From positions 1-53,600 of the IMG/VR virus record IMGVR_UViG_3300014060_000001: a stretch of 53,600 nucleotides of DNA; one strand, written 5' to 3'. The DNA comes from a virus. A program made the translations under genes and the position numbers. Every line of letters begins with the position of its first letter. Within the stretch, counting starts at the first letter, position 1. This document shows positions 5,532 through 30,000 of this stretch, piece by piece. The notes under the pieces are model-generated. The model saw only the letters and a program-made list of their open reading frames with translations, had not been told where the DNA came from and made no database searches.

Positions 5532-6017
5532 ATGGCACAATTATATCATTACTCTGATCCTCACTTTAGTCATTTAAATATAGCAATTAAAAGAGGATTT
5601 CAAACAGTAGAAGAACACGACGAATACATTATTCAACAATGGAATTCAACTGTAAATAAAAACGATAAAATCTTTTTACATGGAGACATTACAATGGAAA
5701 AAGATAAATACTCTATTCTAAAAAGACTTAAAGGTCAAATAGTAGTGATAGGAGGAAACCATGATAAACCTGGACATGCTAAAGAAATGCTTAAATATGT
5801 AAGCGGATTTGCAGGAGCTATCAAATATAAAGGCTTTATCCTTACTCACATTCCCATTCATCCTATAGAGTTAGATGATAAGAGGTTCATAGCTAATATA
5901 CATGGGCATTTTCATTTAAAAGTATTAGATGATAAACGTTACATCAATGTATCAGCTGAAAATATTAATTACAAACCTGTACTATTTACAGAAATAAGCG
6001 CCCAATTCGCTATATAA
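5532..6017 (+). CDS. Calcineurin-like metallophosphoesterase, 161 aa
   Basis: The full metallophosphoesterase signature is present: D9-x-H11 (YSDPHFSH), G51-D52 (HGDI), G-N76-H77-D78 (GGNHDK), and H124-G-H126-x-H128 (HGHFH). These residues bind a two-metal centre that hydrolyses phosphomono- or diesters. The length is that of a compact single-domain enzyme of the YfcE/phage phosphoesterase type. The substrate cannot be read from sequence; cyclic nucleotides, nucleotide signals or nucleic-acid ends are all possible. It begins just after the terminator at 5441 and is followed by a structured RNA region. Fold and catalytic class are secure; the role is not. Confidence 0.9.
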   Translation: MAQLYHYSDPHFSHLNIAIKRGFQTVEEHDEYIIQQWNSTVNKNDKIFLHGDITMEKDKYSILKRLKGQIVVIGGNHDKPGHAKEMLKYVSGFAGAIKYKGFILTHIPIHPIELDDKRFIANIHGHFHLKVLDDKRYINVSAENINYKPVLFTEISAQFAI

Positions 6018-6258: not shown

Positions 6259-6942
6259 ATGAAAAAATGGCTTATGGTCCTCTTTTTATCCCTTATGGGG
6301 TATTTGCCGAGTCAGCCTAAATCATTTCAACAGCCTATCATATTAATATCAGAAAATATAGACGAAATAGAGGATTTAAAAATTACCATTTCAGGATTTA
6401 ATTACTTAAACAAAGTTCATAATATAGAAACTTTAAATATACCAAACGGCTGCCCACTAAATTTAAGCGGACTAAAGTATATAAGTGATTATTATGGAAT
6501 ACGATTTCACCCGATTAATAAAAAATATCAAAAACATGAAGGTATAGACCTATCAGGTATTAAAGGGACTGAAGTGTATTCAACTGGAGATGGAATAGTA
6601 GATAAAGTGTATCGTTCTAGAGGATATGGTAAACTAGTAGTAGTAGATCATGGACATAACATTAAAACCTTTTATGCTCACCTTGACGACTTTAAAGTGG
6701 TAGAAGGCCAGTTTATTGCTAAAGGAGGTTTAATAGGTAAACTAGGAAATACAGGAAAATCTACAGGCCCTCATTTACATTATGAGGTTAGAATTAACGA
6801 TAAAAGTATTAACCCTTTACTCTTATATTCTGACACCGCAAACTTAACAGAATCTAATATCATAAACATATTTAAAATCAAATACGATGTCACAAATAGA
6901 ATATCACACGATAAAGATACCTACGCATTTAACGGAGAGTAA
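6259..6942 (+). CDS. Secreted M23 (LytM-type) peptidase, 227 aa
   Basis: This is a peptidoglycan endopeptidase of family M23. The zinc ligands are H93-x3-D97 (KHEGIDLSG) and H174 of the motif H172-L-H174 (GPHLHYEVR), with H141 (YAHLD) as a further active-site His. The N-terminus (MKKWLMVLFLSLMGYL) is a signal peptide or anchor, so the enzyme should act in the periplasm. The likely role is wall degradation at lysis, or wall remodelling early in infection, since the gene lies in the replication arm rather than among tail genes. Its 3' end overlaps the next gene by 56 nt in another frame. Confidence 0.9.
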   Translation: MKKWLMVLFLSLMGYLPSQPKSFQQPIILISENIDEIEDLKITISGFNYLNKVHNIETLNIPNGCPLNLSGLKYISDYYGIRFHPINKKYQKHEGIDLSGIKGTEVYSTGDGIVDKVYRSRGYGKLVVVDHGHNIKTFYAHLDDFKVVEGQFIAKGGLIGKLGNTGKSTGPHLHYEVRINDKSINPLLLYSDTANLTESNIINIFKIKYDVTNRISHDKDTYAFNGE

Positions 6943-8785: not shown

Positions 8786-9724
8786 AAAAAATTGGGGCTT
8801 TATGTAGTGATACATAAAGAAAATTGGGTGAATTGCTGGAAAGCTGTGTCGTAAGATATGCCAATCAGCAGCCAAGCTAAACTTAGGTTAAAAGAGTTTA
8901 GAAGGTTCAGAGACTAGGAAGTGAGCCTAACAATAAACTTCCCACGAGTGCCCAATATCTGTAACCTTTAACCATTTGTTGTGTATAAGAATTAAAATAC
9001 TTATACATATGCAAACAGGAGATTTTAAATATAAAATAAACTCAAATAAAATAAATATACAAAACCCTATTTATTGTTATTTGATAGGTTTAATTTCCAC
9101 AGATGGTTATATAGACAATAAAAATTCAAGAGTATGTTTAAGAATGAGAAATGAAGATTCTGAAAGAGTATTTAATTTATTAAAAACTTATTTAGAATTT
9201 ACAGGTCCTATTTTTACATATAAAAAAGTAGATAAAGAATTAAGAATTTCTTCCTTAGAATTAATTAAAAACTTAACTGAATTAGGATTAAATACCAATA
9301 AAAATAAAATTCCATTTCTTAACTTTGAACCTTTAACATGTATGAAAATGTATATAAGAGGATTACATGATGGGGATGGAAATGTTAAAAGAGCAAATAA
9401 AAAAGGAAAATGGTCAGGAGGAGAATTTAGATTTACTAATAATAATTTAGAATTTCAAACTAACTTTTTTAATTGGATAAAAAAATCTTTTAAAGGTAAT
9501 ATTAATCTTAGAACAGTTTTAAGAAAATCAGAAGAATTTTATGAAATATCTACAAGTACACATCTTGGAAAAGAATTTGTAAAATGGTTTTATTCAAATT
9601 ATACAGAATATAAACTTAATTGCAAGTACAAAAAATACATGTCTATTATAGATAATGATATAGTCCGAACTATAGAGAAATCTATAGAAGTAAAGGATAA
9701 AGAGCCTTTACGATAACATAATTG
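8786..9724 (+). mobile_element. Group I intron in DNA polymerase gene
   Basis: This is a 939-nt self-splicing intron. P1 forms between exon bases 8779-8785 and guide 8794-8800 with a terminal U-G pair. The P/Q region lies near 8822-8877 (AATTGCTGGAAA, CAGCAGCC). The R element is GTTCAGAGACTA (8905-8916) and the S element GATATAGTCCGAAC (9657-9670), so P7 forms from GACTA and TAGTC. The intron ends with the expected G at 9724. Splicing joins CCT to AAT and restores SPNLQQIP of family A polymerases in frame. It carries a LAGLIDADG endonuclease gene. Confidence 0.93.
9009..9716 (+). CDS. LAGLIDADG homing endonuclease in intron
   Basis: The 235-residue protein has two LAGLIDADG-like helices, LIGLISTDGYI and YIRGLHDGDGNV, so it should work as a monomer that cuts intronless polymerase alleles near the insertion site. 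The acidic catalytic residues are the Asp closing each motif. I chose ATG 9009 (MQTGDFKYK), since the in-frame upstream codons start from TTG. Its C-terminal codons overlap the intron S element at 9657-9670, so coding and ribozyme core share bases. The gene is more AT-rich than the exons, which fits separate acquisition. Confidence 0.92.
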   Translation: MQTGDFKYKINSNKINIQNPIYCYLIGLISTDGYIDNKNSRVCLRMRNEDSERVFNLLKTYLEFTGPIFTYKKVDKELRISSLELIKNLTELGLNTNKNKIPFLNFEPLTCMKMYIRGLHDGDGNVKRANKKGKWSGGEFRFTNNNLEFQTNFFNWIKKSFKGNINLRTVLRKSEEFYEISTSTHLGKEFVKWFYSNYTEYKLNCKYKKYMSIIDNDIVRTIEKSIEVKDKEPLR

Positions 9725-10843: not shown

Positions 10844-11404
10844 ATGGAAATTAGTATGAATATTGAATATTTGCTCAAGAATAAAATCACAGCAAATGAA
10901 TTTTTAATACTTCAGATGCTGTTAGAAAATCAAGAAACCAGACTTGCTGCTTACAAAAAAGTAGTAGGTAATAGTCACTATTTTGCTTGCTTAATTAGTC
11001 TCATTAATATGAACTTTTTAGAAGTAACAGGAAACGGATTAGAAATTACCACAGAATGTATGCGTACATTTAAAGGTAAAGGATTTTTTGAAGAATTCTA
11101 TATTGCCTACCCAGTGTCAGTTGTAAGACCTGATGGTAAAAGAGAATCTTTACGCACAGACCGTACACGGTGTGCAACCAAGTATAATAGACTTGCTAAA
11201 CGTAAAGATGTCCATGAGCATATAATGAAGTGCTTAAATTTTGAAGTAGAAGAACGCACACAGAGCGGATCTCTAATGTATATGAAAAAAATGCCAAATT
11301 GGTTAAGTTCAGAAGCTTGGAAAGAATATGAGGAGAAGATGAAAATCGACTCTATAATAGACAATTTAAAAACTAAGCTAGATGATGGAACCAAACTCTT
11401 ATAG
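10844..11404 (+). CDS. Possible helicase loader or replication initiator
   Basis: The N-terminal 70 residues are helical and resemble a winged helix (NKITANEFLILQMLLENQ). The C-terminal part has the layout of phage replication proteins that end in a DnaD- or loader-like tail: FEEFYIAYPVS, then a basic region that here carries an insertion, YNRLAKRKDVHEHIMKCL, MYMKKMPNWLSSEAWKEY. The W-L-x-x-x-x-W ending is the recognisable part. It overlaps the DnaB-type helicase gene by 23 nt, and that helicase lacks its own N-terminal domain, so a loader or adaptor here is reasonable. I chose ATG 10844; ATG 10856 is an alternative, and the upstream GTG at 10820 is less likely. Confidence 0.55.
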   Translation: MEISMNIEYLLKNKITANEFLILQMLLENQETRLAAYKKVVGNSHYFACLISLINMNFLEVTGNGLEITTECMRTFKGKGFFEEFYIAYPVSVVRPDGKRESLRTDRTRCATKYNRLAKRKDVHEHIMKCLNFEVEERTQSGSLMYMKKMPNWLSSEAWKEYEEKMKIDSIIDNLKTKLDDGTKLL

Positions 11405-12250
11405 TTCACTGCCTTATAGACATATTTCTAAAGCTGCAGATGAGATTGTAAGCTACATTAAAGATAGAAGAGAAGGAAAGAGCAAATCACTTAGTACCCG
11501 ATGGTTAAAGTTTAACAACTCTTGTATGGGAGGCATTGAGCCTAACATAGTAATCACAGTAGCAGGTATTAGTGGTTCAGGCAAGAGCTCTTTCGTTAAT
11601 TCGTTAGAATCTGATTTATTCGATTTAAACCCCGATGTTGATTTCTGTGTATTATCCTTTAACAATGAAATGTCTAGCTCTAAACAAGTGGGGCGTAAAT
11701 TGTCTTCAAAATTAAGCAAAACAACAACCCAACTTTATAGTGGTAATCCAGACTATAAACTTAGCGATAAAGATATAGAGTGTATAGAAAATAGTGCCAA
11801 TGCAATGAAGAAATATGAGATCTATTATGTAGATCAACCTGGCACAGTGGAAGAAATGAGGAAGACTATCGAGTATTTCCAAAATATTAAAGCTAAAGGC
11901 CGTTGGCTTTTAGTAATGATTGACCACACACTACTAATCAAAGGAAGAGCCGGTGAGCAAGAACGAATTATGCTTGCTGATTTAGAACGTATGCTTATGG
12001 CTGCTAAAAAGGCTACTGTTTGTAACACTACCATTATACAGATATCCCAAATGAATAGGGGTATTGAAAATTCCGATAGAATAAACAACCCTTCCTTACA
12101 TTACCCTAATCGAGGCGATCTATTTGGCGCAGATGCAGTTTATCAAGCATCAGATATAGTGTTAGTTATACATAGACCTGAAATACTAGGTATCAGAAGT
12201 TATGGCACCAACGCCTTACCAACTAAAGATTTTGTGTACCTACACCTCAT
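11382..12250 (+). CDS. dnaB: DnaB-type replicative helicase, exon 1
   Basis: Exon 1 codes for 289 residues plus two bases of a split Ile codon. It is a RecA-fold helicase of the DnaB superfamily consisting only of the C-terminal ATPase domain. Walker A is GISGSGKSS (about residues 62-70), FNNEM matches the H1a region, Walker B is LLVMIDH, and the H3-like segment is NTTIIQISQMNRG. The exon ends within YLHLI, just before the conserved K-N-R-x-G motif. The open frame continues to 12407, but those residues are intron-derived. It overlaps the loader-like gene by 23 nt. Confidence 0.9.
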
Positions 12251-12509
12251 AGAAATAAAAATTTGTGACTTTACTAAGCAATTAGTATCGAATAATCCAG
12301 TGAATTCAGAGAAAATCCTACGGGACAACTTTGAGCCAAGCCTACAGAATAACATTAAAGTAAGTAGGAAGGTGCAACGACTAATAGGTGAGGAGTTTAA
12401 CCAATAAACCTGACACGAGCGCTGGACATCCCTAGTGGATGATGACATAGTCTGAACTGTATAGTAATATACAGAAGTGATAATTAAAAAAGTCACGGTA
12501 ACACAATTG
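12251..12509 (+). mobile_element. ORF-less group I intron in helicase gene
   Basis: This is a minimal 259-nt group I intron. P1 forms between TCATAGA (12246-12252, containing the 5' splice site after U12250) and TTTGTGA with a U-G pair at the splice site. The R element is GTGCAACGACTA (12372-12383) and the S element GACATAGTCTGAAC (12444-12457), giving P7 from GACTA and TAGTC. The terminal intron base is G12509. Joining AT to A completes an Ile codon and reads IKNREGEPG, the DnaB C-terminal motif. There is no endonuclease gene, so it cannot move on its own. Confidence 0.9.
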
Positions 12510-13203: not shown

Positions 13204-13902
13204 ATGGCAACTCCGATACTAGTGATGGGGGAGATTGGAACAGGGAAAAGCGTAAGTATACGTAATCTCGATCCCAAAACTACCTTCATTATAGCATCTG
13301 ATATGAAGCCATTAACTATTCCAAATAGTAAAACAAATTACAAAACAATTCTCAAAGAAAACGGCAAATTAGACATCGCAGCTACTAATTACTATGAGAC
13401 GAAAGATGCTCAAATAGTTAAAGCTTTATTAACTCAGATTTCTAATACAAGACCTGACATTAAGGTAATTATAGTAGATACTATAACAAGTATCATTACT
13501 GACGAAATAATGAAAAGATCACACGAGAAAGGATTCGGTAAATATACCGATGTAGCCTTAGATGCATATGAATTAATCACTATGCTTAGAGGCTTGAGAG
13601 AGGATCTTACCATTGTAGTAATGTCTCACACAGAAGACAACTACGATTCCGAAGGAGTACTTAAAACCTCATTTAAGGTTCCAGCTGGAAAAGCAATAGG
13701 CAATCAATTTAAACCTGAAGCCTATTTCCATATGATTTTATACACGGATGTAAGCATGGTTAGTAATAAACCTGAATACAGCTTTTTAACAGAGAATAAC
13801 GGCAAAAATACCTGCCGATCACCATTAGGATTATTTTCAGAATACAAAATCCCAAATGACTTGTCTTACGTGATTTCAGAATATCAGAAATACGAACAAT
13901 AG
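13204..13902 (+). CDS. RecA-like ATPase (Sak4/AAA_24 type), 232 aa
   Basis: Walker A is G9-EIGTGKS at the extreme N-terminus, and Walker B is VIIVDT near residue 95. A later Ser/His segment (IVVMSHTED) resembles sensor regions of RecA-fold NTPases. The length and layout match the Sak4-like phage ATPases (AAA_24), which promote single-strand annealing with a partner SSB. The next gene, 24 nt downstream, is an SSB, as expected for Sak4 systems. Fold assignment is good; the recombination role is by analogy. Confidence 0.8.
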   Translation: MATPILVMGEIGTGKSVSIRNLDPKTTFIIASDMKPLTIPNSKTNYKTILKENGKLDIAATNYYETKDAQIVKALLTQISNTRPDIKVIIVDTITSIITDEIMKRSHEKGFGKYTDVALDAYELITMLRGLREDLTIVVMSHTEDNYDSEGVLKTSFKVPAGKAIGNQFKPEAYFHMILYTDVSMVSNKPEYSFLTENNGKNTCRSPLGLFSEYKIPNDLSYVISEYQKYEQ

Positions 13903-13926: not shown

Positions 13927-14631
13927 ATGTTATATAATATAAACGAAGAGGTTACTACATCTACCTCTCAAACCTATATCAATCCAGGGATTTCTGAAAA
14001 CATCGAACTTTCGCATAGAGTTGCGACTTCTCCAAACGGTAATGCATTCATTGAGTACACTTATACTAATGAGGCGGGACAAAAAGTAATCCGCACAGAA
14101 TGGGAAGTAAATGAATTGCCTCAGTTTAACGATATGACCCCTGGTCAACAAAATATGGTTAGTAAGCGTGCTGAAGAAAATAAAATCAGCGTCGAAGAAG
14201 CCCGTAAATTGATCACTGAAGGCAGTGTCAAAGCTCAAATGAAACGTATTATCAATGTAGCTAAATTATTTGTTTCCGAAGATAACCTCAAAGGACAATC
14301 ATTTAAAAGCTACCTTGATTTTATTACTTTCGTATCTAACAAAATAGGTACGTCTTGTAAAGATGTGAAACTTCGTGTTAAATTCGTATATGACAGAAAA
14401 GGATTTGTAAATACTCCTGAGTATGTAAGCGGTTCCAATATTTGGATCGAACGTGCGGATAAGGTTGCTAAAGAGGACTCCACTATTGAAGTCTTGGCTA
14501 CTGACAAAATGCAGCGTGATGCTGTTAATGGCAGTAGAGCACCTAGAACAGAAAACCCCTTGGAAGATAATTCTTCAACAACTACCCAACTAGGAAAACC
14601 TGGGACGGGGAAAGATGATCTTCCTTTTTAA
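13927..14631 (+). CDS. ssb: Single-stranded DNA-binding protein, 234 aa
   Basis: This is a phage SSB-type protein. It has a central beta-rich domain (about residues 25-180, with FIEYTYTNEAGQKVIRTEW and VKLRVKFVYDRKGFVNTP), then a Gly/Thr/Ser-rich disordered linker, and ends in the acidic tip DDLPF. That tip closely matches the bacterial SSB tail that recruits polymerase, primase and nucleases. It lies directly downstream of the Sak4-like ATPase and is closed by a strong terminator at 14651. The central domain is divergent, so the C-terminal tip and context carry most of the weight. Confidence 0.8.
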   Translation: MLYNINEEVTTSTSQTYINPGISENIELSHRVATSPNGNAFIEYTYTNEAGQKVIRTEWEVNELPQFNDMTPGQQNMVSKRAEENKISVEEARKLITEGSVKAQMKRIINVAKLFVSEDNLKGQSFKSYLDFITFVSNKIGTSCKDVKLRVKFVYDRKGFVNTPEYVSGSNIWIERADKVAKEDSTIEVLATDKMQRDAVNGSRAPRTENPLEDNSSTTTQLGKPGTGKDDLPF

Positions 14632-14689: not shown

Positions 14690-15658
14690 ATGTATGATAC
14701 TTCTAAAGTGATTAATATTACTAAAGATGACGTACTCAAAAAAACTTCACAATATGAAATTTACGCTACTTATTTAGGTTTTAAGCCTACAATAGGTGAA
14801 GTATACATTAGCCCATTTAGAAAGGATTCTAACCCTTCATTTGGCTTATATATGTCTAGAAAAAGCGGAAATATCATGTTTAAAGATTTAGGAACTGGTG
14901 AATCTGGAGACTGCTTTAAATTTGCAAGTCTTATAGAAAACGTATCAACTAAACAAATAATCAAAAATATTTACAAACAATATGTATCAAATAAAGTAAC
15001 AAGAAAACCAATCACTGTACCTATAAAAGAGTACAAAGATTTAGATATTGTAGTAGATGATATACCTTATACAGCTGAGGGTCTAGCTTTTTGGGCAGAC
15101 TTTGGTATTACAGAAAATACTTTAAAATTGTATAATGTAAAACAAATAAAAAAATTCTGGGTAAATGCGATTGAATACTGGACAGCTACCAAAACAAGTC
15201 CAATGTTTGCTTATTTTGTATACTCCAAAACTAAAATATACAGGCCTTATTATAAAAAGCAAAAGTTTTACACTAATTGCACTTCCATAGATATACAAGG
15301 ATGGGAACAATTAGATTACTCTAGGGATACAGTATATATTACAAAATCCACTAAGGATGTAATGTTACTACATGAACTTGGTTACTCTGCAATAGCTCCT
15401 AATGGAGAAGGACACGATATACCAGATAAAGTATTAAGTATACTTAGAGATAAATTTAAACGAATTGTTATTTTATATGACAGAGACTTGCCAGGTCTAA
15501 AAGCTAGTAGAAAATTATGGAGACTTAATAAAGATCTTGATTTTTTATTTATGCCTAGAAAGACTGAGAAAGACTTATCGGATTATTATAGAAAATACGG
15601 TAAAATTAAAACTCTCAAATTATTATCAGATTATGAAAACAAATCAAATAGAATTTAA
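14690..15658 (+). CDS. dnaG: DnaG-type primase, 322 aa
   Basis: The protein has the DnaG layout without the C-terminal helicase-binding domain. The N-terminal zinc-ribbon segment keeps the shape (SPFRKDSNPSFGLY, then KDLGTGESGDCFKF) but has lost most zinc-binding Cys. A middle segment leads to a Toprim domain near residues 215-285: YITKSTKDVMLLHELG, NGEG, and the D-x-D of ILYDRDLPGLKAS. Toprim proteins of this variant have K-S-x-K-D in place of the usual E-G-x-D. It should make RNA primers for the family A polymerase. It overlaps the next gene's start by 26 nt. Confidence 0.87.
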   Translation: MYDTSKVINITKDDVLKKTSQYEIYATYLGFKPTIGEVYISPFRKDSNPSFGLYMSRKSGNIMFKDLGTGESGDCFKFASLIENVSTKQIIKNIYKQYVSNKVTRKPITVPIKEYKDLDIVVDDIPYTAEGLAFWADFGITENTLKLYNVKQIKKFWVNAIEYWTATKTSPMFAYFVYSKTKIYRPYYKKQKFYTNCTSIDIQGWEQLDYSRDTVYITKSTKDVMLLHELGYSAIAPNGEGHDIPDKVLSILRDKFKRIVILYDRDLPGLKASRKLWRLNKDLDFLFMPRKTEKDLSDYYRKYGKIKTLKLLSDYENKSNRI

Positions 15659-16544
15659 ACCGATGATTGTACCTACTCTTAAAGGTATTGACAATCTAGA
15701 TAACATTCCAGATGAATTATTTCCATTGTATTATATGCCATTTTTTAAAGGTCTTCCTTTATATATTAAAGATGGACGTATAAAAGTAAATGGGACAAAT
15801 GAATTAGTTAAAAACTATGAATTAGGGAAGGAACTTAAATTTCTTAGGGACCTTACTCATAAAATAGGATTTGTAATACACCTCACATTTCAATATAAAA
15901 ACTTTAAAGGTAACAAACTTTATGAAGAGGTTTTAAATGAATATGGGCAATTACCTAAAGATTACAAATTACAATTTACAGATGTTGTAATTAAACATCC
16001 TAAAAGCTTAGTTAAAATGAAGCTAGACCCTAGAGATGCGAACATGTGGTTTATAGAAAATGCTCTTAAAAGAGAAAATAGTATAAAACCACATTGGTAT
16101 TTTAATAGAGCTTATATTGCACCTACTAATAAAGAATTGTATAATTATATTGAACCACGTTTAATATATGATAACGATATAGCAGGTGTAACTTTACACA
16201 AGCCTAAAAGTTCTTACCATTGTGGATTTGCAAATTCTGAAGTAGATATTATAAATATAGATTTACTAAGGGAAGAAGAGTTTACTATTATTAATTTAAA
16301 GTGTAAAGTATTACCTTATGGTAAAAAAGATAATGCTAGTATAGTAAGTGAACTTGTAATTTCTAAAGGCACTAGCATTTATATTTTAGATGTCTCTACT
16401 TTAGATATGCCCACTAGAAAATTAATGTGGGATAAAAGATCCCTTCTTTATAACAAACCTGCTATAATTGAAGTCTTAACTATTCCATCTTCAACGTCTC
16501 CAATATTTAAGCGTATTATTCGTTTAGGCGCAGAGATTAAATAA
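15633..16544 (+). CDS. DNA ligase-like protein without catalytic residues
   Basis: The 303-residue protein follows the ATP-dependent DNA ligase layout but has lost the chemistry. Residues 9-50 match the ligase start (KPMIVPTLKG, then FPLYYMPFFKGLPLYIKDGR), where motif I should read K-x-D-G-x-R. Phe37 replaces the nucleotidylated Lys, Lys39 the Asp, and Pro42 the Arg. Motif IV, normally E-G-V/I, is AGVTLHKPKSSY. The C-terminal OB-like domain is retained (KLMWDKRSLLYNKPAIIEV, IFKRIIRLG). The frame is intact, so it is probably a conserved pseudoenzyme that binds DNA or the replisome. I chose ATG 15633; the upstream extension lies within the primase gene. Confidence 0.6.
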   Translation: MKTNQIEFKPMIVPTLKGIDNLDNIPDELFPLYYMPFFKGLPLYIKDGRIKVNGTNELVKNYELGKELKFLRDLTHKIGFVIHLTFQYKNFKGNKLYEEVLNEYGQLPKDYKLQFTDVVIKHPKSLVKMKLDPRDANMWFIENALKRENSIKPHWYFNRAYIAPTNKELYNYIEPRLIYDNDIAGVTLHKPKSSYHCGFANSEVDIINIDLLREEEFTIINLKCKVLPYGKKDNASIVSELVISKGTSIYILDVSTLDMPTRKLMWDKRSLLYNKPAIIEVLTIPSSTSPIFKRIIRLGAEIK

Positions 16545-16621: not shown

Positions 16622-17122
16622 ATGAGACCAACAAAAAGAATTGACAAGTTCTTTGAACACAATATTATAGACCGTTTACATGATGATGACGTGTTCTCAA
16701 ACGAAGAATTTAAGAATATAGCTGAAAACTTTGATAAGTTCAAAGAGTATTGGTATGCTAATCCAGATCAAAGATTTGGGCAGGTACTCATCAATCTAAG
16801 CTTAATTGAAGACAGTACTTTATTTTACAAAGAAGATTTAGATGTACTAATGCAGTATGAAGTGTATTTAGGCGACATCGTAGAATGGAAATCTTATTAC
16901 GATAAGAATGAAAAACTATTAGATAAGCCTATTACTAGATTTATTAAAGATTTAGATACAAGTTATTTACATGCAATTAAGAGATTTTCTTATAAGCATA
17001 TGAAAGATCTTCCTTCTGTAATTAAATATTGTATAGACCAAGAAATTGAAATAAGGAACGAAGAAGAAAAGATGCTTAAAATACTGAGAGCAAAATTTCC
17101 TGAACATTTTGAAGAATTATAA
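16622..17122 (+). CDS. Hypothetical protein, DUF1040-like, 166 aa
   Basis: The N-terminal third carries the pattern RPTKRI, then W-x-x-N-PDQRFGQVLINLSLI, which resembles small phage and bacterial proteins of the DUF1040 kind (R-x-x-R-I, then PDxRxGQLxxN). The remainder is helical and acidic. No catalytic residues are evident. It opens the operon of nuclease genes after the terminator at 16551 and is followed by the next gene after 2 nt. Confidence 0.65.
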   Translation: MRPTKRIDKFFEHNIIDRLHDDDVFSNEEFKNIAENFDKFKEYWYANPDQRFGQVLINLSLIEDSTLFYKEDLDVLMQYEVYLGDIVEWKSYYDKNEKLLDKPITRFIKDLDTSYLHAIKRFSYKHMKDLPSVIKYCIDQEIEIRNEEEKMLKILRAKFPEHFEEL

Positions 17123-17124
17123 TT

Positions 17125-17547
17125 ATGATTAAAAGGACTAAAAAGTCCGCTAATGCTAAAGTTAGAAACGCTACGCCAAATATAGTAGACGGGATTAGAT
17201 TTTTAAGTAAATTAGAATCTTATTGCTATAAAGCTTTAAAAGAAGCTGGTATTGAAGCAGAATATGAACCTCATAGCTATATCTTATTAGAACCTTTCAA
17301 ATACAATGGAGAATCAATACGTAAAATGTCGTACAAACCAGACTTTGTAGGAGATGGATTTATTATAGAATGTAAAGGGATGATGACTGAGACATTTCCA
17401 TTAAGATGGAAGATGTTCAAGTGGTATCTATTTCGTAATAATATTGAAGTAGACTTATACTTGCCAAGGAATCAGAAGCAAGTTAATGAAGTTATACAAA
17501 AAATTAAGGATAAAATAAATGGAAGACAAGAACTATTACCAACGTAA
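17125..17547 (+). CDS. DUF1064-type PD-(D/E)XK nuclease, 140 aa
   Basis: The start region FLSKLESYCYKALKEAGIEAEY has the conserved S-K-L-E of DUF1064 and Holliday-junction-type nucleases. The catalytic core is P-D73-F, then E82-C-K84 (YKPDFVGDGFIIECKG), the PD-(D/E)XK metal site. These small phage enzymes cut branched or Holliday-junction DNA and help remove recombination intermediates before packaging. The gene overlaps the downstream exonuclease gene by 29 nt, so the two nucleases are coupled. Family is well supported; exact substrate is inferred. Confidence 0.82.
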   Translation: MIKRTKKSANAKVRNATPNIVDGIRFLSKLESYCYKALKEAGIEAEYEPHSYILLEPFKYNGESIRKMSYKPDFVGDGFIIECKGMMTETFPLRWKMFKWYLFRNNIEVDLYLPRNQKQVNEVIQKIKDKINGRQELLPT

Positions 17548-18469
17548 AGGATACGTATCAAATAGCGCTCTAAACTGTCTCTTAAAATCTCCAGCAACTT
17601 TCAAAAAATATATAGACGGACTATTAGAAGAAGAATCTAAAGACTATTTTAGATTTGGACAATTAGTACATCTTAGGATATTAGAACCTAAAGAATTTGA
17701 TGATACAGTACTAGTATATGACTATACAGTACCTAAATCCCCTCAGCAGAAATCTTTTGTAGAAGATGTTTACAATGTATATGATGAAGATACTTTATCA
17801 GATATACTTACACAAAGTTATAAGCAAAATTACGCAACTAAAGAATCTGATGATAAGATACTTGATAAAGCCACGGTACTTTACGCTACTCTTAAATCAT
17901 ATGCAACCTTTCTTAGAATTAAGGATGTTAAAACTATAATCTCAACAAAGGAATTTGAAAAGATTAAAGATATGGAGTTAAGCTGTAGAAATCATAAAGT
18001 AGCTAAACACTTGCTATTTGATTTACCGCATCCTCTAGCTAAAGAGAATGAAGACTCTTATAATGAGTTTGAAATATTATGGGAATACAATGGAGTTAAG
18101 TGTAAAAGCTTGGTGGATAGAGTAGTTGTAGACCATACTAATAAAATAATTAAACTTATAGATTTTAAAACTACTGCTAAATTACATTCTTTTAACGAAT
18201 CGTATAAAAACTTTGGATATGATAGACAATTAGCATTTTATACTAAAGCCTTAGCACATAAATTAAATCTAGAAGACTACACGTTTGAACATTATATTGT
18301 TGCATGTGATACAATTACACATGAGACTAAAGTTTTTAAAATCGACAGCATACAAGATGCTACTGAAGAAATTGAGAAACTACTAGACAGAGCTAAATGG
18401 CATATAGATAATAACCAGTATGAGCATAGTATGGAATACTATACTAAAGATGGATACGAAACACTCTAG
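17519..18469 (+). CDS. PD-(D/E)XK exonuclease (RecE/RecB-like), 316 aa
   Basis: The N-terminal segment has the pattern YVSNSALNCLLKSPATF and FGQLVHLRILEP, typical of RecE-type phage exonucleases (VD13/DUF3799 group). The catalytic core is D200 (KSLVDRVVVD) followed by D215-x-K217 (LIDFKTT), then the motif IV-like DRQLAFYTKAL. It should resect double-stranded DNA ends to make 3' tails for annealing by the Sak4-like ATPase with SSB. Its start overlaps the upstream nuclease by 29 nt. Class is secure; direction of digestion is not. Confidence 0.85.
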   Translation: MEDKNYYQRKGYVSNSALNCLLKSPATFKKYIDGLLEEESKDYFRFGQLVHLRILEPKEFDDTVLVYDYTVPKSPQQKSFVEDVYNVYDEDTLSDILTQSYKQNYATKESDDKILDKATVLYATLKSYATFLRIKDVKTIISTKEFEKIKDMELSCRNHKVAKHLLFDLPHPLAKENEDSYNEFEILWEYNGVKCKSLVDRVVVDHTNKIIKLIDFKTTAKLHSFNESYKNFGYDRQLAFYTKALAHKLNLEDYTFEHYIVACDTITHETKVFKIDSIQDATEEIEKLLDRAKWHIDNNQYEHSMEYYTKDGYETL

Positions 18470-22515: not shown

Positions 22516-25500
22516 CTATTTTATGAAGAATGCTAGAGAATCTTCTATATCCCTAACCTTATAAGCCTGCTTTACAACTGGTGTTAAATTCATAATAGTC
22601 TTGAGAATCTTAGGATTACCTTTCCAATTTCCTCTTTCATATACTTCTGTAGGAGAAAACATCTGAACAGCTAGCTTGATTATGTTCTCTATAACAGAAA
22701 CTGATACAGCAGGATTACTTATAATAGTCATAGTTTCCAATGGGTAAGCAAAGAAAAGCATCTCAGATTTAACACGTAAAGTTAAATAAGCGCCTAATGC
22801 ATATGCATACTTTGCTTTATCATCATCTGACTCGCCTTTAAGAGTAAGGAATAGTCCTGACAGTGCAGTTAACAGCATTGCAAATCCAAATTCTGACGCC
22901 CCCCTAATTATATTAGACTGCTCTCTAGGAGATAACTCTTTCCAATTTTCAGTAAAAGCCGCAAATCCCAATGCTCTAGTTTCTTTAGTAGAATTAATGA
23001 CAAATTTAGCTATGCCTCTATAACTACCTTCTGTATAATCCTCTAAAAATTCATTAGTAATTTGCCTTTGAAATCTCTTCTTATATCCTGGTACAATAAA
23101 CTTTCTAAACATGAAAGCAGCTCTACCAACCATAGTCCTTTGTGCTGCATTTTTACCTAACTCAGAATACTCGCCATGTAGCCTAGCTAATAATCTCTTA
23201 GTCTTAGCGCCAAATAAATGAAAATCTTCTTCTGTCCAGTTAGATTTTACTCTATCAACTTTATCACTTAGAACTAGTTGTCCATCCTTTACTGAGTAAT
23301 GTTCGTAAATAGAACCGATATCTTCACCCTTACTATTTTTAGCTTTTACATTATTAAGCATAGCAAGCATTACACGAGTCTGCATAAAATGCTCCCCTAT
23401 ATTAGATATGAAGAATAAAGAACTGGTTTTCATCAGTCTAGCAAATTTGCTATTCTCTTTATAAGTTCCACCTTCGTATTCATTTAAGATATTAAACTGT
23501 TCATTCAAGTGAGTTATAACAGATTCACCTGTTACTTCTCCTACGTCGCCCATTATTACACCCATTTCTTTACCGTATTGTATAGAAGCTGTGTGTAAAT
23601 CTTTTAAGGTTATAAACTCTCCTGCAATAGCTTCTGTTACTTGTTGTAATTCCCCCATAGATACGTTAGATATACCTTGTATTAAGTTTAAACCTAACAT
23701 ATTATAAGCTGCATACTTGCCCAATCCGTCCACCATCTTAGCTTTATCTAACTTCCAACCCATTATATCCCATGAGCCTTCATCTATTTTAGTTTGGCCA
23801 AACATAGTAGATTTAACAAAGCTTTCCATCATACCAGGAAGGTTTGCATCTACCCCCTTAGTTACAGTTGAACCCACTTTGTCTTTACCTAAGGCTTTTC
23901 TAATAATATTACCATTAGCATCTTTCTTAGTATAATCACGTTGTTTAGATATATACATAACATGGTCTATTTCAGGTAATATATCACGCATAGTAACAAA
24001 TCTATCAGCCATTGTATGATACTTAGTGTATAAGTTCATCAAGTCATAAGACTGGTCAGCATCGTTCCATTCTATAGACTTTGAATGCGTTACCTTAATA
24101 GAGTTAACATCTATCCCTACTACATTAAGCATGGTTTTACTAATAGCCTCCTCAGCAGTATTTGCTTTTACAGTTCTAGTATGAGTTTTAAACTCTTTAC
24201 CTCTAGCCTCTGCTAACTTCTGCCTGTCCTCGTTGACTACTAGCTTATAAGTAACTATGTGTTCGTGTGTTTCAGCTGATCTGTTGTAATAGTAAGGAAG
24301 AAAGTCTATAGGTTTATCGTTCTCATCTGTATACTGCCCTCTTTCTATATCGTCAAGTCTACGCTGTGTCATATCCTTAAGACCTTCTTTCAAAGTTTTA
24401 CCAACAGGTTGACCATCTGTATACCTTTCTACTGAGTCTTTAAGTAGGAATGGTAATTGGTATGTTTTCCTTTTATCATGTGGTAATTCGGAATTCAGGT
24501 TTGTAAGAGTATCTGTAATAAGATTATAAAATTCAGCTTGTGCAGATTTAGGATTGTCTTTTAAAAACTTTTCAAATGCAGCCCATTTAGGGTTAACCCA
24601 TTTCTCAATTGGGTTTCTATAAGTATCTTTATTAACTCTTATCCATCTCATTACATCGTTAGCAGCCTCTATACTATCTATATCGAATACATCATATAAC
24701 TTAGGCCTATAAGCATATGGAATCTCTTGTGATAAGAAATACTTTTGCATATCTTCCTCGGTCATTCTATGTTCTGATATAAGAGTTTCCATATGAATTC
24801 TTAAAGCCTTATTATACTCTACTATATCTAAAGGGTTGTTTTCATTCTCCCAACTGTAATTAAGTTGAGCAGCGTCCTTATAAGGTAAATGTGCATGGCT
24901 TAACTTAATACGCTCACGCTCTTTATCCATTTCACTTATATGCTTATTTATAAAGTACCCAGTTCTTTTTCCTTCTTTATTAGTTTCTAACATGAATGAG
25001 TATACGTCAGCTACGTTAGTACTGCCATATACATACCCAGACTCTTTATAAAGCTTTTTAACTAGGCTCCAAGCCTTATTTTTAAACTCTACAGATCTTA
25101 CCCTAGTCTCACTATCTTTAAGTACAATAAGCTTAACAGCGGCCCCCATAACAGCGTCATTTGTATCTAACATGTTATCTAACCAAGCAGTTACTTTGCC
25201 TACATCCTCAGAAGCTAAATCCATTTCTGTTAATAGTAAAGTCTTAGTATCTTCTATTACAGCGTTTATATTCTTCTTCATGTAAGTATCAGCATAATCT
25301 TCTTGCTTCTTCTTTGCTTCTGCCCTTGAAAGTCCGTGATTTTTATTATTTTCACGCCACTCTTTCATTTTAAGGTTTTTAACCTCTATACTTACTTTGC
25401 CTGAATACCTTTTAAGTACATTAGAATTCATCTCGTTACCTCTTAATCTGTACTGAGATTTAAGGTCATTCTTTTTAGCTACTATCTCTTGAAGCTTTCT

Positions 25501-27072
25501 TTTCATACGGTTGAAAATCTTACCTTCAATCTTACCCTCTGTACCTAAGAAACCCTCATTTGTAAGCAAGTTAACTACATCATCAAGAATATCGTACGAA
25601 GACATTAAGTCGTTCCACCTACTCAGGTCTTGTAATTTAAACGCTTCATTATCTCCAGCTTCTAGTTTCTTTTGTTTAGTCTCGTATATAGAATACTCAC
25701 GATTAATAAAACTAGCTGAATTAGCTACAAATTGAAATATAGCATTCTTATCCCTATTATGCTCTTCTTGTAGTTCATATAGTAAAGCCCTTAGTTCAGA
25801 TAGTTCCTCTGCCCTACCTCCTGCTTGCGCTTTACTAATCCTAGTAGTTATAATATTAGTAGCTTTCTGCCTAATTTTTTGGTATTCATCTAATAGTTTT
25901 CTATCAGGTTTAATGAAGTCATAATCTCCTTCCGGGTCTTTTTCAAATGTTACATCCTCTTCCTCTGTAATATCCCCTAAAGGAACTGATTCTTGGCTAT
26001 ATACAGACTGTTTACCAGTGTATTTACTAGAGTCTAAAGGCTTACCTTTAAGTAGATCGTTAGCTAGCTTTCTAGCGTTATTCTTAGTAAGTCCAGTTCT
26101 AAACATTAACCATCTAAAGAATCTATTAAGCCAGGTTTCAAATTTAGATTGATTATTTTCCCTATCAAATATTTCTGCAACTTCCATACCTATTGCAGTA
26201 GCAAGTATTTCTTTCTTAATATACTCCTCAGTACGATCTGCGTAAGTCTCACGTACCTTTTTAGCCATTGAGGTACCTTCAAGCTGTTCTATACCATCTG
26301 CAATGAAAGAGTCGCTTAAACCGCCTCTAAGGTCTATTAAAAGGTGTCCAAACTCATGCCCTACAGTGTCTTTGGTCATAGTCTCAGGGTTGACACGTAT
26401 TACGTTTCCCGGCTCTAGTACACCTTTAGATTCTAACTTGTTATCGTACTTTACCTCTGATACCTGTGGGAGAGTAGATAGGAGAATTGTTTCTAATTCA
26501 GACTGTTGCTGTTCTTGAAATCTTTCTGTGGAGCTGTTTAAATTCCTGGACTTGCTATTATATAGAATATCGCTACTACTAATATGATTAATAGGGAGTA
26601 TATCTTCATTAGCTTCTTCTTCCCGCCGCTTAAATTCCTGATAGTTTTTGTATGCTTCCTCAGTAGCCATCGTATCATTAGCATCTGCTTGTGTTTCTTT
26701 AGCAAATTCTTCAACTGCTTTCCTAGGTAATGGGTAGCCTTCAATTTTAATACCGTATTCCCCTTTAGTATCAGGTGCTACATATTTAATAATATAATTT
26801 CCTACATAGTTTTCTCTTATTTGCTTTACCAAGTCTGCGGCTTTATCCCTACTAAATCCTTTATATAACTTAGTACGCTTACCGTTATCACTTTTCCAAT
26901 TTAATAATTTTAGCTCATTCTCTACATTCCATATGAACTGGTTTTGCTCCCTACCTTGTAGATAGGGAACAGTTTCACCATTTTTCATAAAGATATAGTA
27001 CGCACCGTCTTTACCAAATTTGTCAACTAGATCACTCCAGTCTTTTAAATTAATATTTGGACATTTTGCCAT
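22516..27072 (-). CDS. Large virion protein with HEFGH motif, 1518 aa
   Basis: This is the last gene of the late arm, 27 nt after the giant polymerase protein. Near the N-terminus, H239-E-F-G-H243 (TVGHEFGHLLIDLRGG) is a zinc metallopeptidase signature. A long helical, Lys/Glu-rich middle follows. The C-terminal 200 residues contain hydrophobic stretches (FAMLLTALSGLFLTL and FAYPLETMTIISNPAV) that may insert into membrane. In crAss-like phages the genes here encode virion cargo proteins carried with the RNA polymerase. I infer an injected protein with possible protease and membrane activity. It stops at TAG; 17 in-frame sense codons follow before TAA. Confidence 0.8.
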   Translation of the reverse strand: MAKCPNINLKDWSDLVDKFGKDGAYYIFMKNGETVPYLQGREQNQFIWNVENELKLLNWKSDNGKRTKLYKGFSRDKAADLVKQIRENYVGNYIIKYVAPDTKGEYGIKIEGYPLPRKAVEEFAKETQADANDTMATEEAYKNYQEFKRREEEANEDILPINHISSSDILYNSKSRNLNSSTERFQEQQQSELETILLSTLPQVSEVKYDNKLESKGVLEPGNVIRVNPETMTKDTVGHEFGHLLIDLRGGLSDSFIADGIEQLEGTSMAKKVRETYADRTEEYIKKEILATAIGMEVAEIFDRENNQSKFETWLNRFFRWLMFRTGLTKNNARKLANDLLKGKPLDSSKYTGKQSVYSQESVPLGDITEEEDVTFEKDPEGDYDFIKPDRKLLDEYQKIRQKATNIITTRISKAQAGGRAEELSELRALLYELQEEHNRDKNAIFQFVANSASFINREYSIYETKQKKLEAGDNEAFKLQDLSRWNDLMSSYDILDDVVNLLTNEGFLGTEGKIEGKIFNRMKRKLQEIVAKKNDLKSQYRLRGNEMNSNVLKRYSGKVSIEVKNLKMKEWRENNKNHGLSRAEAKKKQEDYADTYMKKNINAVIEDTKTLLLTEMDLASEDVGKVTAWLDNMLDTNDAVMGAAVKLIVLKDSETRVRSVEFKNKAWSLVKKLYKESGYVYGSTNVADVYSFMLETNKEGKRTGYFINKHISEMDKERERIKLSHAHLPYKDAAQLNYSWENENNPLDIVEYNKALRIHMETLISEHRMTEEDMQKYFLSQEIPYAYRPKLYDVFDIDSIEAANDVMRWIRVNKDTYRNPIEKWVNPKWAAFEKFLKDNPKSAQAEFYNLITDTLTNLNSELPHDKRKTYQLPFLLKDSVERYTDGQPVGKTLKEGLKDMTQRRLDDIERGQYTDENDKPIDFLPYYYNRSAETHEHIVTYKLVVNEDRQKLAEARGKEFKTHTRTVKANTAEEAISKTMLNVVGIDVNSIKVTHSKSIEWNDADQSYDLMNLYTKYHTMADRFVTMRDILPEIDHVMYISKQRDYTKKDANGNIIRKALGKDKVGSTVTKGVDANLPGMMESFVKSTMFGQTKIDEGSWDIMGWKLDKAKMVDGLGKYAAYNMLGLNLIQGISNVSMGELQQVTEAIAGEFITLKDLHTASIQYGKEMGVIMGDVGEVTGESVITHLNEQFNILNEYEGGTYKENSKFARLMKTSSLFFISNIGEHFMQTRVMLAMLNNVKAKNSKGEDIGSIYEHYSVKDGQLVLSDKVDRVKSNWTEEDFHLFGAKTKRLLARLHGEYSELGKNAAQRTMVGRAAFMFRKFIVPGYKKRFQRQITNEFLEDYTEGSYRGIAKFVINSTKETRALGFAAFTENWKELSPREQSNIIRGASEFGFAMLLTALSGLFLTLKGESDDDKAKYAYALGAYLTLRVKSEMLFFAYPLETMTIISNPAVSVSVIENIIKLAVQMFSPTEVYERGNWKGNPKILKTIMNLTPVVKQAYKVRDIEDSLAFFIK

Positions 27073-27099: not shown

Positions 27100-30000
27100 T
27101 TAACATTCTTCTATACGCTTATTAACCTCTTCTAATGTAGGGGAGATTGTAGTCCTACTAGACACTGTATACTGGCCATTACCCTGATTCTCCAAGTGAA
27201 TCATTTGCTTATTAGGTAATGAATAAACCCCTGTACGTATTTCCATACTCATGCCCACTTCACCATCTAATTCAGTCAGCATTTGTATAATACCTTCTGT
27301 TATCCCTGGTACAGCTTGTATAGGATTAGTTGCCCTAGCTGTGTATAGTTGATCAGAACTCTTGTTATTTTCTTCTTCTTTAGTATTCACAATTCTATCG
27401 TTTTTAGAATCTACCTGTATAGCACCTGCAATAACTTCATTTAAGAATCTACCAGTAGATTTACTAGTTTGTGTAGCCATTTGTAAGAAAGTACTTTCAT
27501 TAATATTATAAGGGATATCGTAATTCCTCTTCTCTGTACTACGAGATAAGCCATTCTCTACAATATTAAATACCCTATCATACTTAATGCTCTTTTTAGG
27601 TATACGGTAGTAAATTAACTTAGTTTCGTCACCTGTTACAGTATAACCACCAAACTTATATAGTTGTATATCTCCTTCCACCATATTCTTAAGGTAAGGT
27701 TTACCAAATACAGTACCATCTCCAGTTCCAATTCCAAACTTAGCATAAGGAAGTGTAATCATACTATTCTGTCCTATACCTTCTTGTATATCGCTAGACT
27801 TAAAGTTAGAAACAATCTCTTTTTCTGACCAAGAGTTTACCATTATCTCGTCCATCATATATGCAAATGCACTTGACTGTCTAGATGCTACTTTCTTCCT
27901 CTTTATAAAGTCATTATATCCTGTATCAATAAGTATCTCAGCAGGAACTAGATTATGAAAAGAGTTGGCACCTGATTTAAATCCAGATGTAAAGTAAGAA
28001 TACTTAAATAAATCTAAAGCAAATTGCCTTGTATCTTCATTTACATATAATTCTCTCCATCCTGATACTATACTATTGATATGAAAAGGATCTTCTGGCT
28101 TTCTAACTGATAAGAAACTAGGGCCATCCTGCCTATATACAGGTGTAAATATAGAGAATATAGCGTTACCTTTAGCTTGTGGCCATTTAGTACCCATTTG
28201 TATCTCCTCTATAATCTTAGGAATTGAAGTATTACCTTTAAATAGTTTATCTACTTCTTCACGCTTCATGCCTGTAGGATTAGTATTAGCATCAAATACA
28301 AAGAATTCAGAAGCTACTTGTGTATAGATAGCACTAGATATCTTATTAACTAGCTTTTCATCCGCTACATAAGTCATACCAGTTATATCTAATATCTTCC
28401 TATGCAATTCAACAAATGCAGGAGAGCCTTCTAATAGAGTTGCTCCTACAGAGTCTTGAACCATACCTACTGAATTGTCTGTCATAGTGCCTAAGAATGT
28501 ATCACTGAATAGCCTGTCAAAATTCCTAATACCAGACCCTGAATTAGATTCAATACTAAGTTTCTCTATCTTATTCCTGAATAAATTAACCGCTGAAAGT
28601 TGAGATCCAAACCTCTTAGTATCCACCCTACTAGCAAGAATAGCTTGCTTTAAGGAGTCTGAGAAAGTCAGTAAGTATTCAAATCCATTATATATAGTTA
28701 ACTGAGTTCTATAGTAATCTATATCTAAAGGTATGCCATTCTTCCTGTTCTCTCCTGCTTTTTTAGCTTGTTTTACTAAACCTTCTTGGTTATGTATCAT
28801 GCTTTCAAAAGCCAACTTTCCACTAGGTATAGAATCTATATTCCCACCGAGCCTTATGAACTCTTGTTTATACTTTTTAAGAACTTCTACTTTAGCCTTT
28901 TTAGCATCTATACCTAATTTGTTGTCTTTATTACTTTGAGTTTCTGATACATCTTTAAGTATAGGCTGAGCTATAAATCTGAATGTTTCTCTACCACCAA
29001 CTCCAGCTCTAATGAGTAGGGTAATGACGGGATTTGTATAAGCATTTGCATTCAAATATGCAATCCATGGATCAGCACCAATATCCATGTGGGCATCTAG
29101 TAAAGCTGAGAACCATTCTGTTATATATTCGTTATCTTTACCTTTAAGTCCTGATAATGAAGTAAGTTTTTTTACAGAGGATGGAGGAGTTGTATTCCAT
29201 ACGCCAAGTAAATTTTCATCAACTTCTATTTCAGTATAAGAAACCCCTAAATTCTCTAAGAACATTTTTAATTTCTTTTCTCCAATATTATAGGAGTTAC
29301 TATCTGTATACTGTATATTATCAGTAATTAAAGCTGCTCCACCTTTTAAAGCCTTTCTAACTTCGGCAATAGTTTTATCTATAGCAGGCATATAAACATC
29401 TTCCCCACCTCTTTTTCCAGGTACAGAAACAAATACTACGTCTTTAGAAGTATAATTACCAGTATTAGCCAATTCTTTAGCCTGTTCCGCATAAGTAGCA
29501 GTGCTACTCAAAACCTCACTAGGTCCGAATCCTGCATACTTAGTAGATATTTTAGCTTTACTTTTAGCTTTAACATCTACTTTCTTAATAGGGTTGACGC
29601 TAAATATGTTTTTAATATTTAAATCCCCTTCAAATACAGGGAAGGAAGTTTCTACAATATTCTCTTTAGTAGTATTACCTGCCCCAATATCTTCAAAAAG
29701 ACCTAGATCCACAGATTGACTGAGTATATGATGTGCTCCAGCCAATGCATTAGGGCCAATACCTCTTGCACCAAATTTAAACCTAGATTTAACATCTACT
29801 TGTTCCTCTGGTGATAAATAAGCTAATGGAGAACCTGATATGTCTTCTTGTTGTTCCCATGTATTTCTAACTTCATAAGCTAAATCTTTAAGGATCTCTG
29901 TACCATAACCTAAAGGCTGTGTTCTATGTATTAAATGGCTATCACTATGCCATACTGTAAAGTACATATCTAGTAACCTATTCTGTACAGCTTCTGTAGT

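Follow-up and report, generated by a model that had tools for sequence, protein, structure and literature searches.

The gene and its neighbourhood

What does a protein shaped like a DNA ligase, with its catalytic residues replaced, do in the replication block of a phage? This question is raised by a gene in the 53.6-kb virus contig analysed here (the window, meaning the whole stretch of DNA), which a first-pass annotation made from the letters alone described as an intact frame for a ligase-shaped pseudoenzyme. The frame is indeed uninterrupted and correctly placed in the contig, running over 303 codons from the ATG at 15633 to the TAA at 16542-16544. It lies directly behind the primase gene, whose end it overlaps. 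Upstream of the primase are encoded a DNA polymerase A, a DnaB-like helicase, a Sak4-like ATPase and a probable SSB, and downstream of the pseudo-ligase gene follow a small gene, a Holliday-junction resolvase and an exonuclease. The features of this block are:

11382..12407, + strand: ORF of the DnaB-like replicative helicase (PHROGs match), which a group I intron cuts on the 3' side (RF00028 at 12247-12474, 97 bits; it overlaps the 3' end of the ORF)
13204..13902, + strand: Sak4-like ATPase (phrog_2872, 7.2e-48)
13927..14631, + strand: probable SSB-like protein of the replication block, so called for its acidic DDLPF tail and without a family match
14690..15658, + strand: DnaG-type phage primase, the overlapping partner (phrog_12622, 1.6e-39)
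15633..15658, + strand: overlap of primase stop and pseudo-ligase start, 26 nt, from the coordinates of both genes
15633..16544, + strand: gene of the ligase-shaped pseudoenzyme, 303 aa (ORF, homology to ligases by profile, fold, six relatives)
16622..17122, + strand: small gene downstream of the pseudo-ligase, without known family, with counterparts of 82-90 aa in the contigs L006, L008 and L178 and a conserved motif R-x-GQ-x-LINL-x-LI
17125..17547, + strand: Holliday-junction resolvase / endonuclease (DUF1064 match)
17519..18469, + strand: exonuclease of the exonuclease VIII type (phrog_412, 2e-32)

Besides the helicase ORF, the DNA polymerase A gene is also interrupted, at 8855-9721, by an insert which encodes a LAGLIDADG endonuclease ORF of 246 aa (8976-9716; PF14528, 3e-8). 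The break point falls into a conserved stretch of the polymerase family, SSSPNLQQIP in relatives. As Rfam called no intron at 8855-9721, the insert is either an unrecognised intron or an insert of another type. Upstream of the polymerase, 6259-6942 encodes a protein with a Peptidase M23 domain (PF01551, 9.5e-32), and 5532-6017 a calcineurin-like phosphoesterase. Two very large proteins of 1518 aa (22516-27072) and 4512 aa (27100-40638) are encoded on the - strand, at the place where crAss-like phages have their giant proteins.

Placement of the virus and members of the family

The best GenBank matches of the primase are primases of crAss-like phages with 39-44% identity. In a tree of primases the window and five metagenomic contigs form one clade (support 100/100), which adjoins the sampled subfamilies of the Suoliviridae and falls outside of them. 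Both the crAss-type primase and the gene block are present, and the virus belongs to the Crassvirales.

A scan of IMG/VR with the single primase of the window confirmed nothing; this query was insufficient and the relatives were located through an alignment of primases. L006, L007 and L008 carry the protein at the same locus (phmmer E 6e-11 to 1e-7), and L178 and L179 match the family profile with E values of 1e-117 and 1e-113. The family used throughout comprises therefore six members, the window included, three of which come from one metagenome. A scan of the genome_contigs set with the family alignment was empty.

In all six members the pseudo-ligase gene starts inside the primase gene. The overlap measures 29-65 nt in the four complete relatives and, counted from coordinates, about 17 nt in L007, where the contig end cuts the gene. 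The overlap, present in all six, points to coupled synthesis of the two proteins and to a shared task, and it is the only direct evidence which links the pseudo-ligase protein to the primase.

Homology to ATP-dependent DNA ligases

Searches with the single sequence gave nothing significant in Pfam, NCBIfam, the PDB (phmmer), IMG/VR or, with tblastn, among 50,697 phage records, and its one match in PHROGs was insignificant. The curated cut-off of Pfam PF01068 is not reached by the pseudo-ligase, whereas ligases of the p-crAss type do reach it. With the profile of the six members the picture is a different one. Searched against the whole PDB at E<=10 it finds five sequences, all of them ATP-dependent DNA ligases: three of the Chlorella virus ligase (0.0011-0.0013), human ligase 3 (0.4) and T7 ligase (0.59). 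In hhalign the family aligns with a set of 12 diverse phage ligases at E=1.1e-6 (probability 91%, score 53.3), while the highest score among 40 column-shuffled controls of the family was 18.1. The diversity of this set was required for a significant result, as neither the four crAss-like ligases nor five short phage ligases taken alone gave one. Homology to ligases beyond chance is thus shown by the family profile and not by the single sequence.

The two domains are delimited on different grounds:

15708..16286, + strand: nucleotidyltransferase (adenylation) domain, residues about 26-218 (hhalign to phage ligases)
16263..16541, + strand: OB-fold domain, residues about 211-303 (predicted better than the rest of the model, with pLDDT values per block mostly of 73-88; full-length ligase matches in Foldseek)

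According to the first-pass annotation the protein could be followed along ligases from its first residues to the end of the OB domain. By sequence this holds for residues 26-218, the part aligned by hhalign; the OB domain is derived from structure prediction together with our reading of the C-terminal strand pattern. That annotation had also listed YIKDGR among the ligase-like segments, which turns out to be the hairpin following motif I and not motif I itself.

Predicted fold

AlphaFold2 was supplied with the first four family members. The models are weak, with a pLDDT of 56 and a pTM of 0.35 for the window protein, and 61.5 and 0.41 for that of L008. Nevertheless, the suggested comparison of the predicted structure with known ligases came out in favour of nucleotidyltransferase-type DNA ligases, with the low confidence of the models to be kept in mind. 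The 14 best PDB matches of the window model in Foldseek are all DNA ligases, with the Chlorella virus ligase matched over 294 columns (E 2.2e-5, probability 1.00), and the same is true of the 17 best matches of the L008 model (best E 4.5e-7). Among the first 29 matches in BFVD every entry that carries a name is a DNA ligase. The full-length Foldseek alignments of these low-confidence models place a nucleotidyltransferase domain before an OB domain, which is the order in ligases. Whole-chain TM-scores are 0.2-0.3 and the models do not fix the relative orientation of the domains. On the basis of the models a ligase fold is very likely. Profile, hhalign and Foldseek agree on the ligase shape that had been proposed from a single sequence without a match.

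The closest known proteins are the Chlorella virus (PBCV-1) ligase and other minimal viral and phage ligases, with which the pseudo-ligase shares a predicted core of nucleotidyltransferase and OB domain of about 300 aa and a profile alignment that runs through the regions of motifs I and IV. The Chlorella virus enzyme is the best match of the sequence profile and among the top four by fold, although structural alignments give an identity of only about 10%. In contrast to these enzymes the pseudo-ligase is without the nucleophilic Lys, the Asp and Arg of motif I, the DGE of motif III and the KxK of motif V. It also apparently has no long OB latch: by our reading, with an uncertain register, the corresponding stretch has about 10 residues in the window protein, compared with about 27-30 residues in the insert between OB strands of the Chlorella virus type.

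Loss of the active-site motifs

15741..15758, + strand: degenerate motif I, with F37-F38-K39-G40-L41-P42 instead of K-x-D-G-x-R (profile alignments)
15879..15887, + strand: degenerate motif III, with H83-L84-T85 instead of D-G-E (alignment; H83 invariant in the six members)
16182..16199, + strand: degenerate motif IV, with A184-G185-V-T-L-H instead of E-G-x-x-x-(R/K) (alignment)

In the window protein (MPFFKGLP) the positions of the Lys, Asp and Arg of KxDGxR are occupied by F37, K39 and P42, so that the replacement of all three, as first noticed, is borne out. The Lys which is nucleotidylated in active ligases is not conserved among the relatives either: across the six members its position reads F, K, N, I, S and A, and the lone Lys, in L008, is not accompanied by the Asp and Arg. 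These two residues are absent from every member covering motif I. All of the 12 control phage ligases have motif I in the form K-x-D/N-G-x-R.

For motif IV the replacement of the Glu proved true for only a part of the family. It is Ala (A184) in the window and Arg in L006, whereas L008, L178 and L179 have retained it. The losses go further than the original list, which lacked motifs III and V. The Asp-Gly-Glu of motif III is absent from every member covering this motif, its Asp position being occupied by the invariant H83, and no complete member has a pair of Lys residues at the positions aligned with the K-x-K of motif V. Because of the losses in motifs I, III, IV and V we consider self-adenylation by this protein very unlikely, as far as it can be judged from aligned residues. 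A K-V-N-G at residues 51-54 was considered as a relocated motif I and rejected, as no other member has it and its place is in the hairpin which follows motif I.

Selection and conservation

None of the six frames is broken (L007 ends with its contig), and at least five related phages retain an intact gene at the end of the primase gene, in agreement with the idea of a conserved protein of the replication block. Pairwise dN/dS values are 0.10-0.66 for the pseudo-ligase and 0.06-0.29 for the primase; dS is saturated, so that only their direction is informative. Selection on the pseudo-ligase is purifying, even though dS is saturated. The protein evolves faster than its neighbour: L006 and L178 are 60% identical in the pseudo-ligase versus 82% in the primase, and between the window and its relatives the values are 20-25% and about 50%. 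The invariant residues include P10, P14, K17, G18, F30, P31, G40, G48, N61, H83, L107 and P108. Among the relatives conservation is strongest in REGHPF..YPY.ILNTQFR.RFK, a stretch separate from the catalytic motifs.

Such a rapid divergence from relatives which share half of their primase residues might be expected of a decaying remnant without function, or of a merely chance resemblance to ligases. We regard this as very improbable and rejected it on three grounds, namely the six intact frames across a well-supported clade, amino-acid change well below synonymous change, and shuffled controls scoring far under the real comparison with ligases.

Origin of the pseudo-ligase

Intact ATP-dependent ligases are encoded one or two genes after the primase in other families of the same phage order, in the Intestiviridae (CrAssphage ZA, cr110_1, Rudgehvirus jaberico) and the Crevaviridae (cr127_1). 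They share with the pseudo-ligase this place in the replication block. They differ from it in that they retain KINGxR, DGE, EG and KxK and reach PF01068. They are also larger, at about 400-450 aa, carry an extension at the N-terminus and have no overlap with the primase. Suoliviridae with annotated genomes that lie near the window (cr118_1, cr115_1, cr10_1, cr7_1) have no annotated ligase next to the primase. PF01068 was absent from 31 crAss-like records, these four included, and in a second search the only records with it were the four phages that carry a ligase. Given the intact ligases behind the primase in other crAss-like families, the pseudo-ligase looks like the inactivated descendant of a primase-linked crAss-like ligase. 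This is the simplest reading, the alternative being replacement by a related gene. That the protein descends from ligases as an inactive enzyme is a conclusion in which we have high confidence.

Neither PF01068 nor PF01653 was found in the window and its relatives, including the 68-kb contig L179, although these genomes may be incomplete. Since no other ligase was found, nicks of the phage DNA are probably sealed by the host ligase.

A second set of proteins directly after the primase, called group B here, was found at L013:6051-7016, L016:7007-7942, L024:7003-7893 (L024/L026) and L045:7027-7944. They have a similar size of about 290-300 aa. Compared by hhalign with the window family (group A) they align over 231 columns with E 2.6e-5 and a probability of 75%, and the score of 43 stands against a shuffled maximum of 21. 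At the position of the motif I Lys they carry I, V, V and Q. A direct comparison of group B with ligases by hhalign was not significant, and the two groups were kept apart because a pooled profile (A5) lost the ligase signal. Judged from these alignments, group B is a probable distant relative of the window family. Behind each of its genes come two ORFs, of about 840-880 aa and about 400 aa; the larger ORF had no Pfam or PHROG match where this was tested (L013).

Possible functions

The homology to ligases, the fold, the loss of the catalytic set, the conservation, the coupling to the primase and the absence of another ligase from the sequences searched are supported by computation. To the explanation as a whole, which joins descent from the ligase that some crAss-like phages encode behind the primase with a proposed non-catalytic, DNA-holding role in the replisome coupled to the primase, we give about even chances. 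A DNA-holding task is suggested by three things taken together: unadenylated ligases can hold DNA, DNA ligase IV has a structural role, and the gene overlaps that of the primase. Regarding the first, DNA binding was retained by Lig E K25A, a Lys-to-Leu mutant of T4 ligase and a truncated form of T7 ligase (PMC6144786). Regarding the second, ligase IV of vertebrates is reported to act structurally in end joining, where it binds DNA ends (PMC10858965, PMC9638927). This is a precedent for a ligase working through the binding of DNA ends, but ligase IV is catalytically active and has the structural task in addition, whereas the pseudo-ligases lack the active site throughout their lineage. Against DNA holding speaks that the long latch with which the Chlorella virus ligase grips DNA is apparently missing, and that this enzyme requires adenylation for nick sensing (PMC6144786). 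The role as a clamp-like, DNA-holding subunit next to the primase falls by itself, in our estimate, somewhat short of an even chance.

According to this DNA-holding reading the protein would retain the two-domain body of a ligase, nucleotidyltransferase domain and OB fold, with self-adenylation lost, and would be produced in step with the primase from the overlapping genes. Behind the fork it might then occupy duplex DNA that is primed or nicked, contact the primase, and position or protect the junctions of the lagging strand, which could afterwards be handed over to the NAD-dependent ligase of the host for sealing.

Strict adjacency and overlap with the primase gene would also suit an adaptor that binds the primase and has given up contact with DNA, with the ligase body serving as a scaffold which joins the primase to helicase, SSB or polymerase. 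The acidic OB domain of three of the five complete members and the location of the best-conserved stretch outside the catalytic motifs fit such a role, yet this stretch could equally be a surface in contact with DNA, and we consider the adaptor rather unlikely. Net charge helps little at this point. The nucleotidyltransferase domain is basic (+2.7 to +7.8), but as active ligases are equally variable the charge was dropped as an argument for DNA binding, and it does not discriminate among the functional readings. An effect on the host, either as a regulator or inhibitor of its NAD-dependent ligase or as a decoy which occupies nicks and delays host ligation, is improbable in our view. The ligase shape would suit it, and the phage, for which no ligase of its own was found, presumably relies on that of the host; but the phage would damage the sealing of its own lagging strand, the gene is linked to the primase rather than to early genes of host takeover, no LigA-binding element is evident in the sequence, and none of the present findings favours an inhibitor.

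Two further explanations would keep some ligase chemistry, and to both we assign a small probability. The pseudo-ligase could belong to a ligase of two subunits, with the catalytic one encoded in an unsequenced part of the genome: at 53.6 kb the window may be partial, and the PDB entry 9hu3 bears the title 'PR1 phage heterodimeric DNA ligase'. Against such a partner speak the lack of PF01068 and PF01653 in the window and in the 68 kb of L179, and the fact that the pseudo-ligase itself already spans both nucleotidyltransferase and OB domains. Equally slight is the chance that the protein is still an enzyme, which binds or transfers nucleotides through a relocated Lys (K39, K46 or K51, for example) or performs another chemistry. 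The surroundings of motif I are rich in Lys, the window has K51-V-N-G as a pattern, and five of the six members, though not the window, have a Lys two residues before the Gly of motif I. But no other member has the K51 pattern, the Lys that the relatives have in common lies one residue off the position of the nucleophile with the length unchanged, and the residues of motifs III and V that hold AMP are gone as well.

Pseudoenzymes are common. In the open-access literature we found no report of a DNA ligase that has lost catalysis and is yet fixed in a viral replication operon. It is possible, and we propose it only tentatively, that a crAss-like lineage converted its replication ligase into a non-catalytic subunit of the replisome, a clamp or keeper of junctions made together with the primase, and the same conversion may also have taken place, or be shared, in group B. 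If the pseudo-ligase binds nicks or primed junctions, it would represent a natural separation of the DNA-holding function of a ligase from its chemistry. In any case, an orphan gene of an abundant phage order gains a name and, with the primase, a concrete candidate partner.
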